Positions 556-13,469 of a stretch of DNA of 32,739 bases are shown here, piece by piece. The position numbers were made by a program, and so were the translations under genes. Within the stretch, counting starts at the first letter, position 1. Every line of letters starts with the position of its first letter. The notes beneath the pieces were generated by a model, which saw nothing but the letters and a program-made list of their open reading frames with translations, was not told the origin of the DNA and made no database searches. The DNA is from Microcystis aeruginosa LEGE 91341 (GTDB taxonomy: Bacteria > Cyanobacteriota > Cyanobacteriia > Cyanobacteriales > Microcystaceae), in the NCBI RefSeq assembly GCF_015206885.1, contig NZ_JADEXY010000038.1:1-32739 (forward strand), written 5' to 3'.

Positions 556-1860
<1,305 letters not shown>

Positions 1861-1875
1861 CCCACCACCCCGCCC

Positions 1876-2967
1876 ATGGATCGCCTAGACTTTATCTCCC
1901 CGGAAACCCGTTTCTATTCCCCACCGCATCCTTTTGTTCTCGAATCGGGGGCGGTTCTCGAAAGGGTGCGGATCGCCTATCGAACCTGGGGAATTTTGAA
2001 TAACAAGCGGGATAACGGGGTTATTGTCTGTCATGCCTTCACGGGATCGGCGGACGTGGAAGCTTGGTGGGAACCTTTGTTAGGAACTGGACGCGTTCTC
2101 GATCCGACCCGCGATTTTATTGTCTGTAGCAATATTCTCGGTAGTTGCTACGGGACAACCGGCCCGACTTCGATCGATCCCCGTACCGGTAAACCCTACG
2201 GCCCGACTTTCCCAGAGATTACCATTCGGGATCTGGTTCACCTACAACGGCTTTTGATGGATGCGTTGGGGATCGAGTCTTTGCGGTTGGTGATCGGGGG
2301 TTCCTTGGGGGGGATGCAGGTTTTGGAATGGGCGCTACTATACCCGGAGAGGACGCGATCGATCGCTGTGATTGCGGCTTCGGGACGACATTCGGCCTGG
2401 TGTATCGCGCTGGGAGAGGCCCAAAGGGGGGCGATCTACGCTGATCCAGATTGGCAAGGGGGAAATTATGCGATCGATCGCCCTCCGGCCCGGGGTTTAT
2501 CGGCAGCCCGGATGATGGCGATGACTACCTACCGATCGCACGCCAGTTTTGAGGAACGTTTCGGCCGGGAGTACGGGGAGGGGGGAGAGTTCACGATCGC
2601 CCGCTATCTAGAATATCAGGGGAAAAAGTTAGTCGAACGTTTTGATGCTAATGCTTATATCACCTTAAGTAGGGCGATGGATCGTCATGATGTCACCCGG
2701 ACGGGAAAAAGTTACGAATCGGTTTTACAGTCGATTCAACAACCGACGGCGATCGTGGCGATCAATTCGGATCTTCTTTATCCTCCGGTGGAACAAGAGG
2801 AGTTAGCGAAATATATCCCCAATTCGGAATTATTCTGGTTGCGATCGCCGCACGGTCACGATGCGTTTTTAATGGATGGCGATATGGATGCGTTGAATGA
2901 TCTTCTCGTCACTTTCCGTTTAGAAAGGGGAACTCGTGACGGTTGCGGGTTCGGGATGACTGGGTAG
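1876..2967 (+). CDS. metX: Homoserine O-acetyltransferase
   Basis: Alpha/beta-hydrolase-fold enzyme that activates homoserine with acetyl-CoA, providing the substrate for MetY. 363 residues, the normal size. The nucleophile elbow GGSLGGMQ places catalytic Ser at S143; the likely Asp is D299 (NSDLLYPP) and the likely His is H328 (HGHDAF). The ATG at 1876 is followed by a family-typical N-terminus (DFISPETRFY). It lies 15 bp after metY. Some MetX homologues use succinyl-CoA; the sequence does not let me exclude that. Confidence 0.92.
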   Translation: MDRLDFISPETRFYSPPHPFVLESGAVLERVRIAYRTWGILNNKRDNGVIVCHAFTGSADVEAWWEPLLGTGRVLDPTRDFIVCSNILGSCYGTTGPTSIDPRTGKPYGPTFPEITIRDLVHLQRLLMDALGIESLRLVIGGSLGGMQVLEWALLYPERTRSIAVIAASGRHSAWCIALGEAQRGAIYADPDWQGGNYAIDRPPARGLSAARMMAMTTYRSHASFEERFGREYGEGGEFTIARYLEYQGKKLVERFDANAYITLSRAMDRHDVTRTGKSYESVLQSIQQPTAIVAINSDLLYPPVEQEELAKYIPNSELFWLRSPHGHDAFLMDGDMDALNDLLVTFRLERGTRDGCGFGMTG

Positions 2968-4709: not shown

Positions 4710-5285
4710 CTAAATCTCGTAGTGCCAGATGTCCTCCTCTCGTAAAAGAAGACGATGGACGGGAAGACGTTCCACGGCCCCCTGTTGTTCAAGATGATTA
4801 AGTGCGCGGGTAATTGTGACTCTAGTGGTTCCTAATAAGTCAGCGATATCCTGATGAGTTAGACGCACATCAATTAATTGTCCGGTACCGGTTTGTTTAC
4901 CAAATTGATTGCCTAACCATGACAGTAATTTCACAACCATAACATCAGTACGTTTGTAGCTACGAATAATACTTAGTTCTTGTGCTTGCTGAAGATGAGA
5001 CAGCAGAATTTCTGCCATTTGATAACTCTCAACTGTGGAAAAGGAAACTGCTTGCACAGGAGTGATGCACTCAACTTGATAGGGATTGACTCTCTCTAGG
5101 GTTTTGCCAACAAAATTGCCAGGTCCCCACAATCCCAAGACGATCAGGGTTCCATCTTCTAACCAGGTGGAGGTTTTCACGACTCCACTCTCGATTTTCC
5201 AGAAATTAGGGTTTCTAAGGGGCAAAATCGCCCGATTATCAAAGTGCCAGCGATGGGGGGTTGGTGGTTGATAGGTAAGCGTCAT
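4710..5285 (-). CDS. Crp/Fnr-family transcriptional regulator
   Basis: 191 residues. The N-terminal ~110 residues form a cyclic-nucleotide-binding-type beta barrel (LEDGTLIVLGLWGPGNFVG resembles the core of that domain). The C-terminal third is a winged helix with LTHQDIADLLGTTRVTITRA, the classic Crp helix-turn-helix. It lacks the Fnr-type N-terminal cysteine cluster, so it is not an iron-sulfur oxygen sensor. It is the first gene of a likely two-gene operon with the CadD-like transporter. Small Crp-type regulators of this kind are common in cyanobacteria; the ligand is unknown. Confidence 0.8.
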   Translation of the reverse strand: MTLTYQPPTPHRWHFDNRAILPLRNPNFWKIESGVVKTSTWLEDGTLIVLGLWGPGNFVGKTLERVNPYQVECITPVQAVSFSTVESYQMAEILLSHLQQAQELSIIRSYKRTDVMVVKLLSWLGNQFGKQTGTGQLIDVRLTHQDIADLLGTTRVTITRALNHLEQQGAVERLPVHRLLLREEDIWHYEI

Positions 5286-5442: not shown

Positions 5443-6117
5443 TTATTTCGGGGTGCTAGTCTTCTCCAGTTCCGTGGTGGCCGAGGAGATCAGTTCTTGC
5501 CAAGCTCGATCGCTTTCCTGTAGAGTTTGTTTAACTGCGTCGATGGTCTTTTCCACGCGAGTTTTCAGGAAAGGGGAAGCATTGTCTTTGAGTCGTTCGG
5601 TGTCGTCGGCTAAGATATCGATCGTCTCGGAGGTATTAACAAGGCTATTTTCTAGGGTAATAAGGTTGTTTTGCAGGGTTTCACTGAGGTTAGCCCCAGA
5701 TTTGGTCAATTTTTTCGTAAATTTACTCACTTTTTCCCCTAGATCGTCAATATTGTCCGCTAAGTTCTCTAGGTTGTCCTGTTGAGCTTCGATAATCTTC
5801 TTATCGAGAGAAGGAGCGGCCAGTTGAGCATTTAGGTCATCGATAGCCGATTTTGCCGCTTGGATGGCTTTTTCATAGGCAATTTGGGCATCTTCCAGAA
5901 TTTTTGGGCTAGAAACCTCATTTTTTTTCTTGACTGGTTCCACCACAGTGCCACCCGTTGCTGTTGCACGGTCAATGACGGCCAACGGTTCGGGGAGTAG
6001 CGGCAAGGCGATCGCATTTCCCCTTCCCCCGAGGAGCAAAGTGACCGTTAAGAGGAAAATCAGCAGCCGGAAAACTTGATTTTTGAGGCTTTGAAAGCTC
6101 TTATTTCGGTTGATCAT
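5443..6117 (-). CDS. Exported helical protein without Cys or internal Met
   Basis: 224 residues. The N-terminus has a basic start (MINRNKSFQSLKNQ), a hydrophobic core (FRLLIFLLTVTLLLGG) and a probable signal-peptidase site near ALPLL. Residues ~75-220 are heptad-rich helix or coiled coil (repeated LENLADNIDDLGEKV-type patterns), reminiscent of apolipoprotein- or alanine-zipper-like proteins. I recognise no enzyme motif. It contains no cysteine, and its only methionine is the initiator, which matches the sulfur-poor composition of several genes further downstream; a helical repeat composition could also explain this. Function unknown. Confidence 0.65.
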   Translation of the reverse strand: MINRNKSFQSLKNQVFRLLIFLLTVTLLLGGRGNAIALPLLPEPLAVIDRATATGGTVVEPVKKKNEVSSPKILEDAQIAYEKAIQAAKSAIDDLNAQLAAPSLDKKIIEAQQDNLENLADNIDDLGEKVSKFTKKLTKSGANLSETLQNNLITLENSLVNTSETIDILADDTERLKDNASPFLKTRVEKTIDAVKQTLQESDRAWQELISSATTELEKTSTPK

Positions 6118-7262: not shown

Positions 7263-8210
7263 TTAGTCGATATCTTCGAGGTCTTTAAACAGGGCCGTGC
7301 TGAGGTAACGTTCCCCGAAACTAGGCTGAATCATGACGATTAATTTATCTTCGTTTTCGGGTCTTTTGCCCACCTGAATCGCCGCCCATAAAGCCGCCCC
7401 GGCCGAGATGCCCGATAGTAGTCCCTCCTGACGAGCTAACCGTCGCGCGTAGGCGAAAGCGTCCGTATCATCGACGATAATCACCTCATCGATTAATTCC
7501 GGTCGGAAAATGGCCGGAATAAAACCGGCCCCGATGCCTTGGATTTTGTGCGGTCCCGGTTGTCCTCCCGATAAGACGGGACTATTAGAGGGTTCAACTG
7601 CGATCGCTTGAAATTGGGGACGACGGGGTTTAATGGTTTCGGCAATACCAGTAATGGTTCCCCCGGTTCCCACGCCACCGATAACGATATCTACCAGACC
7701 ATCGGTATCAGTCCAGATTTCTTCGGCGGTGGTTTCTCGGTGAATTTTCGGGTTAGCCGGGTTGCGGAACTGTTGCAAACTATAGGCGTTGGGGGTGTTT
7801 TCGACTATTTCCTCAGCCCGGGCGATCGCTCCTTTCATGCCTTGGCTACCCGGGGTTAATTCTAATTGCGCCCCGTAAGCTTTTAACATGGCCCGTCGTT
7901 CTAAACTCATGGTTTCGGGCATAGTCAGGACTAAGCGATAGCCTTTGGCTGCCGCTACCATGGCCAGGGCGATGCCGGTATTGCCGGAAGTGGGTTCCAC
8001 CAGAATTGTTTTATCGGGGTGAATTAGTCCGGCGGCTTCCGCGTCCTCCACCATACTGACACCGATGCGATCCTTAACCGAGGCGGCGGGGTTCATACTT
8101 TCCAGTTTGACGACGATGCGGGCTTTTACTCCCTCTGCTACTGGGATTCGATTCAGTTGAACTAGGGGTGTCCGTCCTACCAATTGGGTGATGTCTTTTG
8201 CGATCGCCAT
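7263..8210 (-). CDS. cysK: Cysteine synthase (O-acetylserine sulfhydrylase)
   Basis: 315 residues, full length. It forms cysteine from O-acetylserine and sulfide using PLP. The cofactor Lys is K46 in [11 protein letters not shown]; the substrate loop [10 protein letters not shown] (from ~74), the phosphate-binding [11 protein letters not shown] and the C-terminal GISAGAA are all present. The ATG at 8210 gives a standard N-terminus ([13 protein letters not shown]). It is transcribed away from cpcBA across a ~630-bp intergenic region and was probably co-transcribed with the now-decayed transsulfuration gene. It contains no cysteine but has several methionines, so it is not sulfur-depleted overall. 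Confidence 0.94.
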
Positions 8211-8844
8211 AATCCCACTTGCTTTATACTTGTTGGCTATTTTTAATTATATATGTATTTAAATTGTTTTACAATACCTTTTAGATTGAAGTACAGTGCG
8301 TCGGCGGGGATAATCCCTGTCGATTTTTATTGCCTTGCCACTTTTTTTGTATATCGAAGCACAATCGATAAAATTGTCTTGGGAAATTTCCCTCAATTTA
8401 GTTAATTATTATTAGTATATGAAAGCACATTTGTTTAAATAACTTAAACGAATTATTAGAGAGATGAAAAGAGTGATACTTTTTCTTGGTATAGAGTTAC
8501 ACATTTAGGAAAGTTTTCTGAGATTTATATTAAAAAATTATTTTTTTGCCACTTTTTTGAGAAACAATTTTTAATAAATAAAGGTGAAAATATGTTCTAT
8601 AAAATAATTCATGGCAAAAACGAAGTCTATCTAGGAGCGGATAACAACGCTAAATTCAATTAACAAGAATTGTTCCTCGATATACAAAAAATCTGGCCAA
8701 GGGAGAGCAAAACTTTTTTCTGGGACGATATTATAGTCCCAAGGGAAAAACTCCTAGATACTTTATCGGAAAAATAAAGAAAAGCCAGAAAAATCAACCT
8801 CGATATTTTGCCGAAACCAATCATCATTATAGGAGATGAAAACT
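8211..8844. promoter_or_regulatory. Divergent cysK / cpcBA intergenic region
   Basis: About 630 AT-rich bases separate the divergent cysK and cpcB starts and must hold both promoters. A GC-rich imperfect hairpin around 8303-8322 (GGGAT/ATCCC core) followed by ATTTTTAT could be an attenuator or terminator. The cpcB-proximal half contains the interrupted small frame listed separately. The cpcB ribosome binding site AGGAG is at 8831-8835. I cannot assign -10 and -35 boxes confidently. Confidence 0.5.
8592..8777 (+). pseudogene. 60-codon frame interrupted by one in-frame stop
   Basis: From ATG 8592 the frame reads MFYKIIHGKNEVYLGADNN and so on to a TAA at 8661-8663, then continues in the same frame for 37 codons (including QELFLDIQKIWPRESKTFFW) to a TAA at 8775. 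The downstream part has ordinary protein-like composition, so this may be a small gene broken by one point mutation, or a chance frame in the cpcB leader. A purine-rich AAAGGTGAAAA precedes the ATG. I recognise no family. It ends 68 bp before cpcB. Confidence 0.35.
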
Positions 8845-9366
8845 ATGGTGTTAGATGCCTTTGCCAAAGTCGTTTCCCAGGCCGATACCCGGGGGGAATA
8901 CCTGAGCGAGAATCAAGTCAATGCCCTAATTGCCTTCGTCAAAGATGGTAATAAACGGGTCGATGTGGTCAATCGTCTTTCCAGTAATTCTTCTGCGATC
9001 GTTACCGATGCCGCGCGTAGTTTGTTTTCAGAACAACCCGTTTTAGTTGCCCCCGGTGGCAACGCCTATACAAACCGTCGTGCCGCCGCCTGCTTGCGGG
9101 ATTTGGAAATTATCCTGCGCTACGTTACCTATGCCACCTTCACCGGCGATGCCAGCATCCTCGATGATCGCGCCTTGAACGGTCTGCGGGAAACCTACGT
9201 CGCCCTAGGGGTTCCGGGTGCTTCTGTTGCGGCTGGAATTCTCAAGCTCAAAGACGCTTCCCTTGCCCTAGCAGCCGATCCCAACGGGATCACTCGTGGG
9301 GATTGCAGTTCTTTACTAGCAGAAGTCGCTTCTTACTTCGATCGAGCGGCGGCGGCAGTTTCCTGA
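8845..9366 (+). CDS. cpcB: Phycocyanin beta subunit, sulfur-depleted isoform
   Basis: Light-harvesting biliprotein of phycobilisome rods; 173 residues, normal length, globin-like fold. Bilin cysteines are C83 ([13 protein letters not shown]) and C154 (GDCSS), and the methylated Asn site is N73 (GGNAYTNRR). The start is ATG 8845 rather than the in-frame ATG at 8836, because AGGAG (8831-8835) abuts the earlier ATG and is correctly spaced from the later one, giving the family start [14 protein letters not shown]. The protein has no internal Met and no Cys beyond the two bilin sites. Usual Met and Cys positions are replaced: RRMAAC is RRAAAC, CLRDME is CLRDLE, DDRCLNG is DDRALNG and KMKEA is KLKDA. 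This matches the composition known for sulfur-starvation phycocyanin Cpc3 of Calothrix PCC 7601. No rod-linker genes follow cpcA. Confidence 0.95.
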
Positions 9367-9421
9367 TGCTGTGACTTTCTTATCTCAATCCGATTAAACT
9401 TTTGTAGGAGCAATTCCATCG

Positions 9422-9913
9422 ATGACCAAAACACCTTTAACCGAAGCGGTGGCTACTGCCGATTCCCAAGGCCGTTTTCTCAGCAGTGCTGAATTACAAG
9501 TAGCCTTCGGTCGTTTCCGTCAGGCCGCCATCACCCTAGAAGCGGTAAAAATCCTCGCCCAAAAAGCCCCCAGTTTAGCCCAAGAGGCAGCCAACGCTGT
9601 CTATCAAAAATTTCCCTACACCACCCAACTCCAGGGGCCGAACTATGCCTACGATGAGCGGGGGAAATCCAAGTGCGTTCGTGATATCGGCTACTATATC
9701 CGAATTATTACCTATGCCCTCGTGGTAGGGGGTACAGGCCCGATCGATGAATATCTGGTCGCCGGTTTGAGTGAAATTAATAGTGCTTTTGAACTATCTC
9801 CTAGCTGGTATATCGAAGCCTTAAAATACATCAAAACCAATCACGGATTAAGTGGGGATGCTGCTGTAGAAGCTAATTCCTACATTGATTATGTGATCAA
9901 CGCCCTTAGCTAA
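9422..9913 (+). CDS. cpcA: Phycocyanin alpha subunit, sulfur-depleted isoform
   Basis: Partner of CpcB in the rod hexamer; 163 residues, full length. The single bilin cysteine is C85 ([14 protein letters not shown]). It lies 55 bp after cpcB with an AGGAG ~11 bp upstream of its ATG, and the pair ends in a strong terminator. As in CpcB, sulfur is removed wherever the chromophore does not need it: YTTQMQG is YTTQLQG, YYLRMVTYC is YYIRIITYA and GPMDEYL is GPIDEYL. Only the initiator Met and C85 contain sulfur. Cyanobacteria usually carry another cpcBA copy with linker genes; here cpcH/I/D and lyase genes are absent, so rod assembly would rely on linkers encoded elsewhere. Confidence 0.95.
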
Positions 9914-9958: not shown

Positions 9959-9986
9959 ACCTCGGGATGAGCGCCGAGGTTTTTTT
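9959..9986 (+). terminator. Rho-independent terminator of cpcBA
   Basis: ACCTCGG (9959-9965) pairs with CCGAGGT (9974-9980) over an 8-nt loop and is followed directly by TTTTTT. It lies 46 bp after the cpcA stop codon, so the transcript probably ends here and includes only cpcB and cpcA. Confidence 0.85.
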
Positions 9987-10007: not shown

Positions 10008-10042
10008 CAGAAAACGGGTTTCTCCGAGAAACCCGTTTTCTG
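10008..10042. terminator. 16-bp perfect hairpin, second terminator
   Basis: A perfect 16-bp inverted repeat (10008-10023 and 10027-10042) with a 3-nt loop lies between the cpcBA terminator and the convergent rhodanese gene. No T-run follows, so it may act as a bidirectional back-up or transcript-stabilising hairpin. Confidence 0.5.
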
Positions 10043-10076
10043 CCTAACTTAGCCATCCTCGCGAACCTACCCCAAC

Positions 10077-10136: not shown

Positions 10137-11135
10137 TCAGACCGCTTTTTCTGGCCCAGTAGCGACGGGCAGATCTGTGGTACTGTACTCTGTCCAAGAA
10201 CCCTCATAAATTCGCACCTTGGGATAACCGAGCAGATGTTTGAGGACAACATACTGTAAAGTCGCTTCCCGTCCCGTACTGCAACTGACGATAATATTAT
10301 CCGAGGGCTTGATGTTGCGTTGGGCAAGAATCTTCCTGATTTCGTCTAAAGATTTCAATTTATGGGGATTTTTCAGAGATTCATCGGGATTATTCGCTTC
10401 CGTAAAGGTCGGCCAGGGTATATTTTTCGCCCCCGGAATATGACCATTTCTCAGCCAGATATCCTGTTTCCCCTGAAAAAGTTCTTCCGGTCTAGGATCG
10501 ATAAAAACCACATCGGGTTTGCCGATCAATTTCTCTACTTCTGCCAAAGTCACCCGAATCGAGGGATTATCACGGACAGTAAAGCTCCCTGGTTGATATT
10601 TAGGGAATTCTTTCGTTACCTTTTGTTCAGAAGCCTTATAACCCTTAAAACCACCATCTAAGACGGCCACATCTCGGAAACCCGATCGCTCTAATAAATA
10701 AGCGACCATGGTTGCCCCCAAGACATCGCGACCATCGGAATAGACTACCACTCGATCGCCATTAGTGATTCCCGCAGCGGCAAAGAGACTGCCAATTTTA
10801 TCCTCTTGCCAATATTGAACCGGCAAAAATCCGTTCGGACCGCGAAAATTATTATCGGCTATATTCACCGCTTTCGGTAAATGACCGGTGATATATTCCA
10901 AAGGATTAATCCGCAGATCGAGAATTTTTAACTTCGGATCGTTGAGATTTTGTGCTACCCAAACCGGCGATACAAAGTCTATCTTAGTCTCAGATTTAGA
11001 CGTGGCCATCAGGGGCGATGACGGTGCTAAGGTAAAGGTTAAAATGCAGAGAAGAACTAAAGTGAGAAAAGCAAGGGGACGGCTTTGAAACCGTCCCAGG
11101 GATAGACCTTTCCCTTTAGGCAGTTTTGGTTTCAT
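10137..11135 (-). CDS. rhdA: Periplasmic rhodanese (thiosulfate sulfurtransferase)
   Basis: 332 residues with a signal peptide: basic N-region, hydrophobic core LAFLTLVLLCILTFTL, probable cleavage near PLMATS. Two rhodanese domains follow (~55-165 and ~195-325). The second has the active-site loop CSTGRE with Cys285; the first has SDGRDV at that place and is catalytically dead, as in other tandem rhodaneses. The mature protein contains one Met (M143) and one Cys (the catalytic one). A periplasmic rhodanese of this type (RhdA) in Synechococcus PCC 7942 is induced by sulfur starvation. Its position between sulfur-sparing cpcBA and the sulfate-binding protein gene supports the same role here. 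The exact substrate in vivo is not established. Confidence 0.88.
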   Translation of the reverse strand: MKPKLPKGKGLSLGRFQSRPLAFLTLVLLCILTFTLAPSSPLMATSKSETKIDFVSPVWVAQNLNDPKLKILDLRINPLEYITGHLPKAVNIADNNFRGPNGFLPVQYWQEDKIGSLFAAAGITNGDRVVVYSDGRDVLGATMVAYLLERSGFRDVAVLDGGFKGYKASEQKVTKEFPKYQPGSFTVRDNPSIRVTLAEVEKLIGKPDVVFIDPRPEELFQGKQDIWLRNGHIPGAKNIPWPTFTEANNPDESLKNPHKLKSLDEIRKILAQRNIKPSDNIIVSCSTGREATLQYVVLKHLLGYPKVRIYEGSWTEYSTTDLPVATGPEKAV

Positions 11136-12386: not shown

Positions 12387-13469
12387 TTAACGCTGAATTT
12401 GGTCAAAAATCGCCCCATCAGCGAAGAATTTTTTCTGTATCTCCTCCCAACTACCGATCGCCGTATAGGAGAACAGATTCGGCACTTTTGGGTATTGTTT
12501 ACTAAACTCTTTAGCCACATTAGCATTAACCGGACGGAAACCCACCTTGGCGAATTCCCGCTGCGCTTCGGGAGTAAAGAGAAATTGGGCAAAAGCTGTC
12601 GCTACTTCCCGGGTTTTGCGTTTATCAACTATTTTATCCACTACGGCCACCGGTGGATCGATCGAAACATTGACCGGAGGAATAGTATAGGAAAAACCGG
12701 TTTCCCCTTTTTGACGGGCCAAAATTACCTCGTTTTCGTAGTTAAGCAGCACATCCCCCTGATCCTGTTTAAAGAAGACATCGCTGGCTTCCCGGGCATC
12801 TTTGGGTAGTACAGGCACGTTTTTATAGACATTGCGGACGAAATTGGTCGCTTGTGCTTGATTGCCGCCGGTCTGAGTTACCGCTCCCCACAGGGCCAAA
12901 AAATTCCAACGGGCCACCCCAGAGGTTTTCGGGTTGGCAGTAATCACTTTAATCCCCGATTTGGCTAGATCCGGCCAGTTGCGGATTCCTTTGGGATTGC
13001 CCTGACGAGTAACTAAGGCTACCACGGAACGAGTGGCGATGGCGTTATTGGGTAATTCTTTCTGCCAACCGGGGTTAACTAAACCCGCTTTTTGCAGGCG
13101 TTCCACATCGGAACCGATAGCCAAATTTACCACATCTGCATCTAATCCGTCGATAACAGCGCGGGTTTGGGAACCAGAGCCGCCATAACTCTGTTTAATC
13201 ACTACATCCTGTTTTTTCTCTCTTTTCCATTTGTTGACGAATAGAGGAATGATTTTTGAGTAGGCCGATTGAGTCACCGCGTAGGAAACTAGGGTGATTT
13301 CCACGGTTTTTTGTTTAGCTTGCTGTTTGTCCGGACTTGCCAGCAGATTACTTGATGCCGATAGGGGACTAGAAGCTAGTCCGATTCCCGTTGTGACAAC
13401 GGCAGCCGTAGCTAGAGAAATAAAAGGTAAGAGGGTTTTCGGTTTTGAGGATCTAGGATCAGGGATCAC
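12387..13469 (-). CDS. sbpA: Periplasmic sulfate-binding protein
   Basis: 360 residues; substrate-binding component of the sulfate/thiosulfate ABC transporter. A signal peptide (TLLPFISLATAAVVTTGIGL) precedes a mature protein starting near residue 45. Family blocks include QSYGGSGSQTRAVIDGL (oxyanion-binding region), TANPKTSGVARWNFLALWG and LLNYENEV. The start is GTG 13469 with AAAGGAG upstream; an ATG 9 bp earlier opens a three-codon frame whose TGA overlaps the GTG. There is no cysteine and no methionine apart from the initiator in the whole protein. Permease and ATPase genes are not adjacent. SbpA is sulfur-regulated in Synechococcus PCC 7942. Phosphate- or molybdate-binding proteins are more distant alternatives. 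Confidence 0.92.
   Translation of the reverse strand: MIPDPRSSKPKTLLPFISLATAAVVTTGIGLASSPLSASSNLLASPDKQQAKQKTVEITLVSYAVTQSAYSKIIPLFVNKWKREKKQDVVIKQSYGGSGSQTRAVIDGLDADVVNLAIGSDVERLQKAGLVNPGWQKELPNNAIATRSVVALVTRQGNPKGIRNWPDLAKSGIKVITANPKTSGVARWNFLALWGAVTQTGGNQAQATNFVRNVYKNVPVLPKDAREASDVFFKQDQGDVLLNYENEVILARQKGETGFSYTIPPVNVSIDPPVAVVDKIVDKRKTREVATAFAQFLFTPEAQREFAKVGFRPVNANVAKEFSKQYPKVPNLFSYTAIGSWEEIQKKFFADGAIFDQIQR

Follow-up and report, generated by a model that had tools for sequence, protein, structure and literature searches.

A sulfur-sparing second phycocyanin in Microcystis aeruginosa and the recurrence of such proteins among cyanobacteria

The locus

The window, by which we mean the whole stretch of DNA analysed here, is a 32,739-nucleotide contig (C253) of Microcystis aeruginosa LEGE 91341, whose genome of 4.49 Mb is assembled in 280 contigs. 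It carries a complete pair of genes for the beta and alpha subunits of a C-phycocyanin, cpcB-s and cpcA-s, which encode a second, sulfur-sparing phycocyanin (Table 1). Both proteins score above the cut-offs of the curated NCBIfam equivalog models for C-phycocyanin, the pair TIGR01339 and TIGR01338: CpcB-s reaches 285.5 bits as a beta subunit (cut-off 279.3) and CpcA-s 285.9 bits as an alpha subunit (cut-off 269.45). The best match of CpcB-s in the PDB is 1cpc_B (E 1.6e-82). The open reading frame of cpcB-s contains an earlier in-frame ATG, its first, at 8836, which would add one methionine. This codon is unlikely to be the start because the Shine-Dalgarno-like sequence directly abuts it, while the gap to the ATG at 8845 is 9 nt.

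Table 1. Features of the window around the phycocyanin pair
Feature	Position	Strand	Basis
metY-like gene and metX, methionine synthesis, further out	562..2967	+	profile search
Crp-family regulator, CysR-like candidate	4710..5285	-	49%/53% identity to Crp-family genes of relatives; CysR identity putative
cysK, cysteine synthase A, divergent neighbour	7263..8210	-	TIGR01139, 459.6 bits, cut-off 350.95
Promoter-like region, with a TATAAA box and upstream element like those in promoters of ordinary cpcB	8566..8603	+	resemblance only
Shine-Dalgarno-like AGGAG	8831..8835	+	direct reading; in 10/10 aligned Microcystis upstream sequences
cpcB-s, sulfur-sparing C-phycocyanin beta, 173 aa	8845..9366	+	profile search, direct counts
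cpcA-s, sulfur-sparing C-phycocyanin alpha, 163 aa	9422..9913	+	profile search, direct counts
Intrinsic-terminator-like hairpin with T run, 3' of cpcA-s	9959..9980	+	consensus scan
Rhodanese-domain protein, 3-mercaptopyruvate sulfurtransferase-like	10137..11135	-	two rhodanese stretches; 106.3 bits, below the 3-MST NCBIfam cut-off of 250
sbpA, sulfate-binding protein	12387..13469	-	TIGR00971, 285.4 bits, cut-off 155.5

The first-pass annotation of this DNA had claimed that the two subunits have no methionine except the initiators and no cysteine except those that bind bilins. A direct count bears this out: the only cysteines are those at positions 83 and 154 of beta and 85 of alpha, so that all three bilin-binding residues are kept, and the replacement motifs that had been listed (RRAAAC, DDRALNG, YTTQLQG and YYIRIITYA) are all found in the pair. 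In 20 other proteins of the window, picked by hand from the list of open reading frames, there are 144 methionines and cysteines in 6,585 residues; therefore two subunits of the present length would be expected to contain 7.3, and against this background composition the probability of finding none in the 331 non-bilin residues is 7e-4. Two of the substituted residues of CpcB-s, Cys110 and Met135, are invariant in 70/70 ordinary alignment rows.

Three neighbours, cysK, the rhodanese gene and sbpA, were identified by profile searches, in agreement with the earlier statement that the pair lies among sulfur genes, and the separate terminator attributed to it corresponds to the hairpin of Table 1. 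The SbpA protein of the window itself contains no methionine or cysteine after its first residue. Of the two genes of relatives to which the Crp-family gene is 49% and 53% identical, one adjoins cysE (G088, L225) and the other a palindrome-like site (G295, L236), which suggests that the gene of the window may be a CysR orthologue.

Two further elements of the window were observed. A hairpin repeat at 10008-10043, 3' of cpcA-s, recurs across the genus, each genome giving 38-54 matches to the stretch used as query; among the matches listed, most are the hairpin repeat. On the minus strand at 5443-6117 lies an orphan gene for a 224-residue protein with a hydrophobic N-terminus (judged by eye), which matches no Pfam family at 0.001. 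It is present in 12/12 genomes of the genus, including those that do not carry the phycocyanin pair, and all 12 copies are devoid of methionine and cysteine beyond the first residue, making it a candidate for a second sulfur-starvation protein.

The ordinary copy and conservation in the genus

The ordinary cpcBA of the same genome, on contig C14, belongs to the same family and has the same three bilin cysteines, each of its subunits being one residue shorter at the N-terminus than its counterpart in the window. The identity between the two copies is 72.7% for beta and 75.3% for alpha. A comparison with this copy had been proposed earlier, since an equally poor composition would have refuted the sparing reading; the copy is not poor in methionine and cysteine, and the reading withstands this check. 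Counting initiators, its beta subunit has 7 Met and 3 Cys and its alpha subunit 4 Met and 2 Cys, that is 11 Met and 5 Cys in all versus 2 and 3 in the window pair. The residues that could be removed number 11 in the ordinary pair (9 internal Met and 2 Cys) versus none in the window pair. Thus, an ordinary alpha-beta unit holds 16 sulfur atoms and the sparing unit 5 as translated, or a predicted 3 if both initiators are taken off.

CpcB-s is 100% identical at the amino acid level in 8/12 genomes of the genus and is missing from the other four (G003, G005, G008 and G009); the pair is therefore dispensable. Named records with an identical CpcB belong to M. aeruginosa and M. wesenbergii. The codons of both genes differ between the window and the seven other genomes by 138 synonymous and 3 nonsynonymous changes, which are not independent events since these genomes are related, and the pair is under strong purifying selection. 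In G005, contig C10 (L164, about 1380-1562) shows a deletion-like empty site in which the cysK and rhodanese flanks are nearly adjacent, the pair being gone and the rhodanese gene mostly gone. In G009, the place of the pair between these flanks is taken by about 2.3 kb of different sequence.

Spread and number of origins

Of 388 genomes sampled at order level, 90 gave matches at E <= 1e-80. Copies that count as sparing, those in which no more than one methionine or cysteine is removable, occur in at least 23 of the 388 (8 in the genus, 9 and 6 others), a lower bound because the copies of not all 90 matching genomes were read, and in which one genome, G295, is counted on CpcB alone. A phylum sample of 386 genomes added one more, G432. 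The first-pass annotation had described a starvation isoform of one organism; its recognition of a sulfur-sparing second phycocyanin stands, but its scope was too narrow, since the class recurs in all these genomes and has several origins.

A tree was built by an IQ-TREE quick search from 135 cpcBA pairs, many duplicates from the same genome or genus and truncated genes having been left out. Every column with a methionine or cysteine in any row was removed (29 of 332, leaving 303). The tallies of these residues, which omit the first two aligned positions, divide the pairs into 27 sparing, 88 ordinary (six or more removable residues, 14 of them with only 6-8) and 20 intermediates; 24 of the 135 have exactly zero. 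Sixteen sparing pairs, including that of the window and those of Calothrix brevissima NIES-22, G358, G321 and G088, form one clade (SH-aLRT 98). The eleven others lie outside it, in each case near intermediates: four Nostocaceae-type pairs (one group, in two places), one pair of Pseudanabaena biceps PCC 7429, and a further group (98) that holds the remaining six. The tree requires at least five changes, four of them forced by well-supported branches. A single sparing clade is rejected, as a tree constrained to unite the 27 is worse by 221.8 log-likelihood units (AU p 7e-58); in an earlier set, with 25 sparing pairs in 111 rows, the difference was 208.0. The sparing pairs thus comprise one large clade and at least three further origins, whose exact number could be blurred by gene conversion or transfer between copies.

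The replacements recur. In the first alignment, M80A and M87L are shared by all 25 sparing rows and C110A by 24, the row of locus L135 keeping the cysteine. Residue Met135 is replaced by Leu or Ile in sparing rows.

Extra copies and sole copies

Copies were sought in nine further genomes of the main-clade type (G311, G295, G223, G432, G379, G353, G358, G321 and G088). All nine retain at least one ordinary cpcBA, a count that G295 enters on CpcB alone, having been placed in this type by a CpcB 84% identical to that of the window. Two ordinary copies are found in G358, G321 and G088, and three ordinary CpcB in G432. Among genomes of other origins, the sparing CpcB is the sole CpcB at E <= 1e-55 in five (G297, G245, G380, G377 and G362), with the proviso that a draft assembly could hide a copy and that a more distant one would escape this threshold; the assembly of G245 consists of 5 contigs. 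Two more, G318 and G277, have a sparing CpcB plus a 63-65% relative, perhaps a phycoerythrocyanin. Because of the five sole-copy genomes, poverty in sulfur is by itself no proof of inducibility.

The initiator methionine

With starts set by the alignment, the initiator is followed by a small residue in both subunits of every one of the 27 sparing pairs (V or T in CpcB; T, S, A or V in CpcA), and this arises through one N-terminal residue more than in most ordinary proteins. Among the 88 ordinary pairs, position 2 is L, F or R in 82 CpcB and K in 84 CpcA, and is small in both subunits in 4 pairs. The 20 intermediates have a small residue there in 19 CpcB and 11 CpcA. A small second residue in both sparing subunits leads to the prediction that the initiator is removed and its methionine recovered. 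On the tree, 4-5 independent contrasts link the N-terminus to sparing and none is contrary, so that the link is suggestive and, with so few contrasts, not significant. The additional residue is not unique to sparing pairs, since the PDB beta chains 22vh_D and 4h0m_B, each 173 residues long, align from residue 1.

Rod linkers

The first-pass annotation had noted that no linker genes accompany the pair. Indeed, no linker domain was found on the window's contig, and those of the genome are confined to CpcC, ApcE and one CpcG-like gene. The CpcC protein (243 aa) has 1 internal Met and 1 Cys, and the 256-codon open frame of the CpcG-like linker has 2 Met and no Cys. Since these rod linkers carry few such residues and neither is free of sulfur, Microcystis is without a separate sulfur-free linker, and its ordinary ones are already sulfur-poor. 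Behind the sparing pair of NIES-22, two linkers (L070:9611-10426 and L070:10567-11433; 271 and 288 residues) have no Met past the first residue and no Cys. A 589-residue OprB porin of the same locus (L070:645-2414) is likewise devoid of both.

Sulfur genes beside sparing loci

The surroundings of 87 cpc loci, up to about 8 kb per side and less at contig ends, were searched with 17 sulfur-gene queries, one locus (L129, with a cut CpcA) being left unclassified. The queries match at 13/24 sparing loci versus 0/62 others, a result that is favoured by the design, because some of them derive from genes that had first been noticed next to sparing loci. They represent sulfate (SbpA, CysTWA), sulfonate (SsuACD), taurine (TauD) and methionine-salvage (ARD, MtnB) genes; the family was checked for most, for ARD through the copy at L071, and MtnB was named by eye from its sequence. 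After records were merged per genome or genus, sulfur genes stand at 10/19 sparing loci: at 10/15 of the main-clade type, a count that includes L066/L145, which is without CpcA and absent from the tree, and at 0/4 of other origins.

Related proteins of about 360 residues are encoded near the sparing cpcBA of Calothrix HK-06 and Pantanalinema (L069:6510-7610 and L071:2734-3795). They have no Pfam match at 1e-10 and were seen near 4/24 sparing and 0/62 other loci.

Upstream sequences and candidate regulation

The TATAAA of the promoter-like region lies 247 nt before cpcB-s, a similar box being found at -221 in the genome's own ordinary copy. Between 8150 and 10150 there are 8 sigma-70-like hexamers, versus a mean of 3.5 (sd 1.9) in shuffled sequence. 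An Rfam scan of the window at gathering scores gave no match. The leader of cpcB-s contains, at 8722-8740, a small hairpin-like sequence, GGGACGATATTATAGTCCC, which by sequence is preserved in part across the Microcystis genomes that were aligned.

In relatives, a 30-bp palindrome with the consensus AATACGGTAAATCTATAGATTTACCGTATT is located upstream of the sparing cpcB at five loci (L066/L145, L068, L069/L148, L072 and L073), and at L071 it lies further off from this gene. A matrix was made from six sites at four loci, to which some of the test loci are close kin, and with a threshold of 12 bits it found 19 sites in the 215 kb of 14 other sparing loci, versus a mean of 3.7 after shuffling, and 10 sites in the 887 kb of 63 non-sparing loci, versus 8.7. 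With the threshold raised to 18 bits, 13 sites remain, all in 5 of the 14 sparing loci and 0 in non-sparing ones. Whole genomes were scanned on both strands for a related pattern with at most one mismatch. Matches exceed those of a reversed control in G379 (48 vs 1), G358 (31 vs 4), G223 (22 vs 1) and G088 (11 vs 0), and the signal is weak or absent in G311 (8 vs 2), G295 (7 vs 3), G000 (4 vs 1), G432 (3 vs 0) and G018 (2 vs 2). The whole genomes of G001, which is of the same genus and carries the pair, and G020 gave no match to the pattern.

Ten genes adjacent to sites were picked from 28 site loci. Seven encode SbpA (2), SsuA (2), SsuE, CysE and a TauC-like permease; the other three, a porin, a surface protein and one of no clear family, are not genes of sulfur transport or synthesis. 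Several other site loci are without an evident sulfur gene. A palindrome near AATACGGTAAATC(G/T)ATAGNNTTACCGTATT was seen at sulfate, sulfonate and sparing-cpcB genes (L066, L068, L069, L070, L071, L072, L073, L074, L075 and L149). The palindrome is thus a candidate for a cyanobacterial sulfur-starvation box. The LEGE 91341 genome has one full copy (C34:15794-15823), between the genes of the porin and the TauC-like permease named above. No site in the window reaches 12 bits, versus a mean of 1.0 in shuffled sequence, and therefore the Microcystis pair is probably under other control, the Crp-family gene of Table 1 being a candidate controller.

Relation to known systems

Calothrix/Tolypothrix sp. 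PCC 7601 possesses a second phycocyanin emptied of methionine and cysteine, with ordinary copies alongside. This protein, Cpc3 or phycocyanin-3, was reportedly described by Mazel and Marliere in 1989 and by Gutu et al. in 2011. To our knowledge, the known case is one filamentous strain. Judged by its composition and by the ordinary copy in its genome, the window pair is of the same type: both subunits lack all but the initiating methionine and the bilin-binding cysteines, and the pair is an extra copy beside an ordinary, sulfur-containing cpcBA. In the Cpc3 operon, cpcBA is followed by the linkers H3, I3 and D3. These rod linkers are free of sulfur, whereas the window pair has no linker gene and the rod linkers of its genome are poor in sulfur; unlike Cpc3, it sits between cysK and the rhodanese and sbpA genes. 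Sulfate-binding and scavenging proteins poor in sulfur are known as a class, to which the SbpA of the window can be compared; that class consists of transport proteins, while the pair is an antenna protein.

PCC 7601 responds to low sulfate with antenna proteins in which sulfur amino acids are depleted (PMC4424289), and a sulfur-sparing phycocyanin is ascribed to this strain (PMC4424289; PMC12269360). The window pair is accordingly a new version of this known type of protein, one without linker genes. Among the titles and abstract openings listed for the open-licence literature, we found no description of a sulfur-sparing phycocyanin of Microcystis, nor of its repeated origin, of genomes with a sparing CpcB only, of the residue after the initiator or of the palindrome.

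Interpretation

We put the probability that the window pair is a facultative sulfur-sparing phycocyanin at roughly 0.8. When sulfate is scarce, rod production would be switched from the ordinary CpcBA to the sparing pair, which would keep light harvesting going while freeing methionine and cysteine. The sparing subunits, both predicted to lose their initiator methionine, would be built into rods with the existing sulfur-poor linkers. Induction by low sulfate in Microcystis, like this mode of assembly and the trimming of the N-termini, is what we infer from the composition of the pair and its setting.

It is rather unlikely, in our judgement, that the pair is instead a minor phycocyanin made constitutively, permanently cheap in sulfur and subject to no switch. 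The genomes of other origins with a sparing CpcB only would fit such a protein, as would the resemblance of the upstream region to an ordinary cpc promoter and the missing palindrome; against it stand the position of the pair, away from the cpc operon and divergent to cysK, and the ordinary copy retained here and in all nine further main-clade-type genomes, which would make a permanent replacement pointless. Less likely again is an isoform resistant to oxidation, with a role under high light or peroxide and not at low sulfate. Methionine and cysteine are both prone to oxidation, and composition alone cannot separate their loss on this account from sulfur sparing; however, the sulfur genes found at sparing and not at other cpc loci, the palindrome common to sparing cpcB and sulfate or sulfonate genes in some relatives, and an SbpA in the same window that is devoid of both residues all speak for sulfur. 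That chance or the decay of a duplicate produced the composition, as the absence of the pair from four genomes of the genus and the empty site of G005 might be taken to mean, is refuted by the codon differences, by the like replacement in several origins of positions invariant in ordinary rows, and by a composition of probability about 7e-4 that is matched by zero counts in 24 of 135 pairs.

For the cyanobacteria as a whole, we lean, with more reserve than for the facultative reading of the window pair, towards a recurrent removal of sulfur in at least four origins and under two regimes: in the main clade an extra copy, probably controlled by sulfate, and elsewhere a permanent replacement as the sole CpcB. 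The initiator methionine would also be removable, and hence recyclable, by way of the small second residue of both subunits.

Phycobilisomes make up a large part of cyanobacterial protein, and because of this a phycocyanin emptied of sulfur is among the clearest cases of an element shaping protein sequence. Several origins with identical replacements, intermediates included, amount to a replicated natural experiment on which methionine and cysteine positions are expendable and on the order in which they can be lost, and the predicted removal of the N-terminal methionine is open to a simple test by mass spectrometry. In Microcystis, a common former of freshwater blooms, the conserved pair provides a marker gene and allows the supply of sulfate to be tested as a factor in the physiology of blooms.
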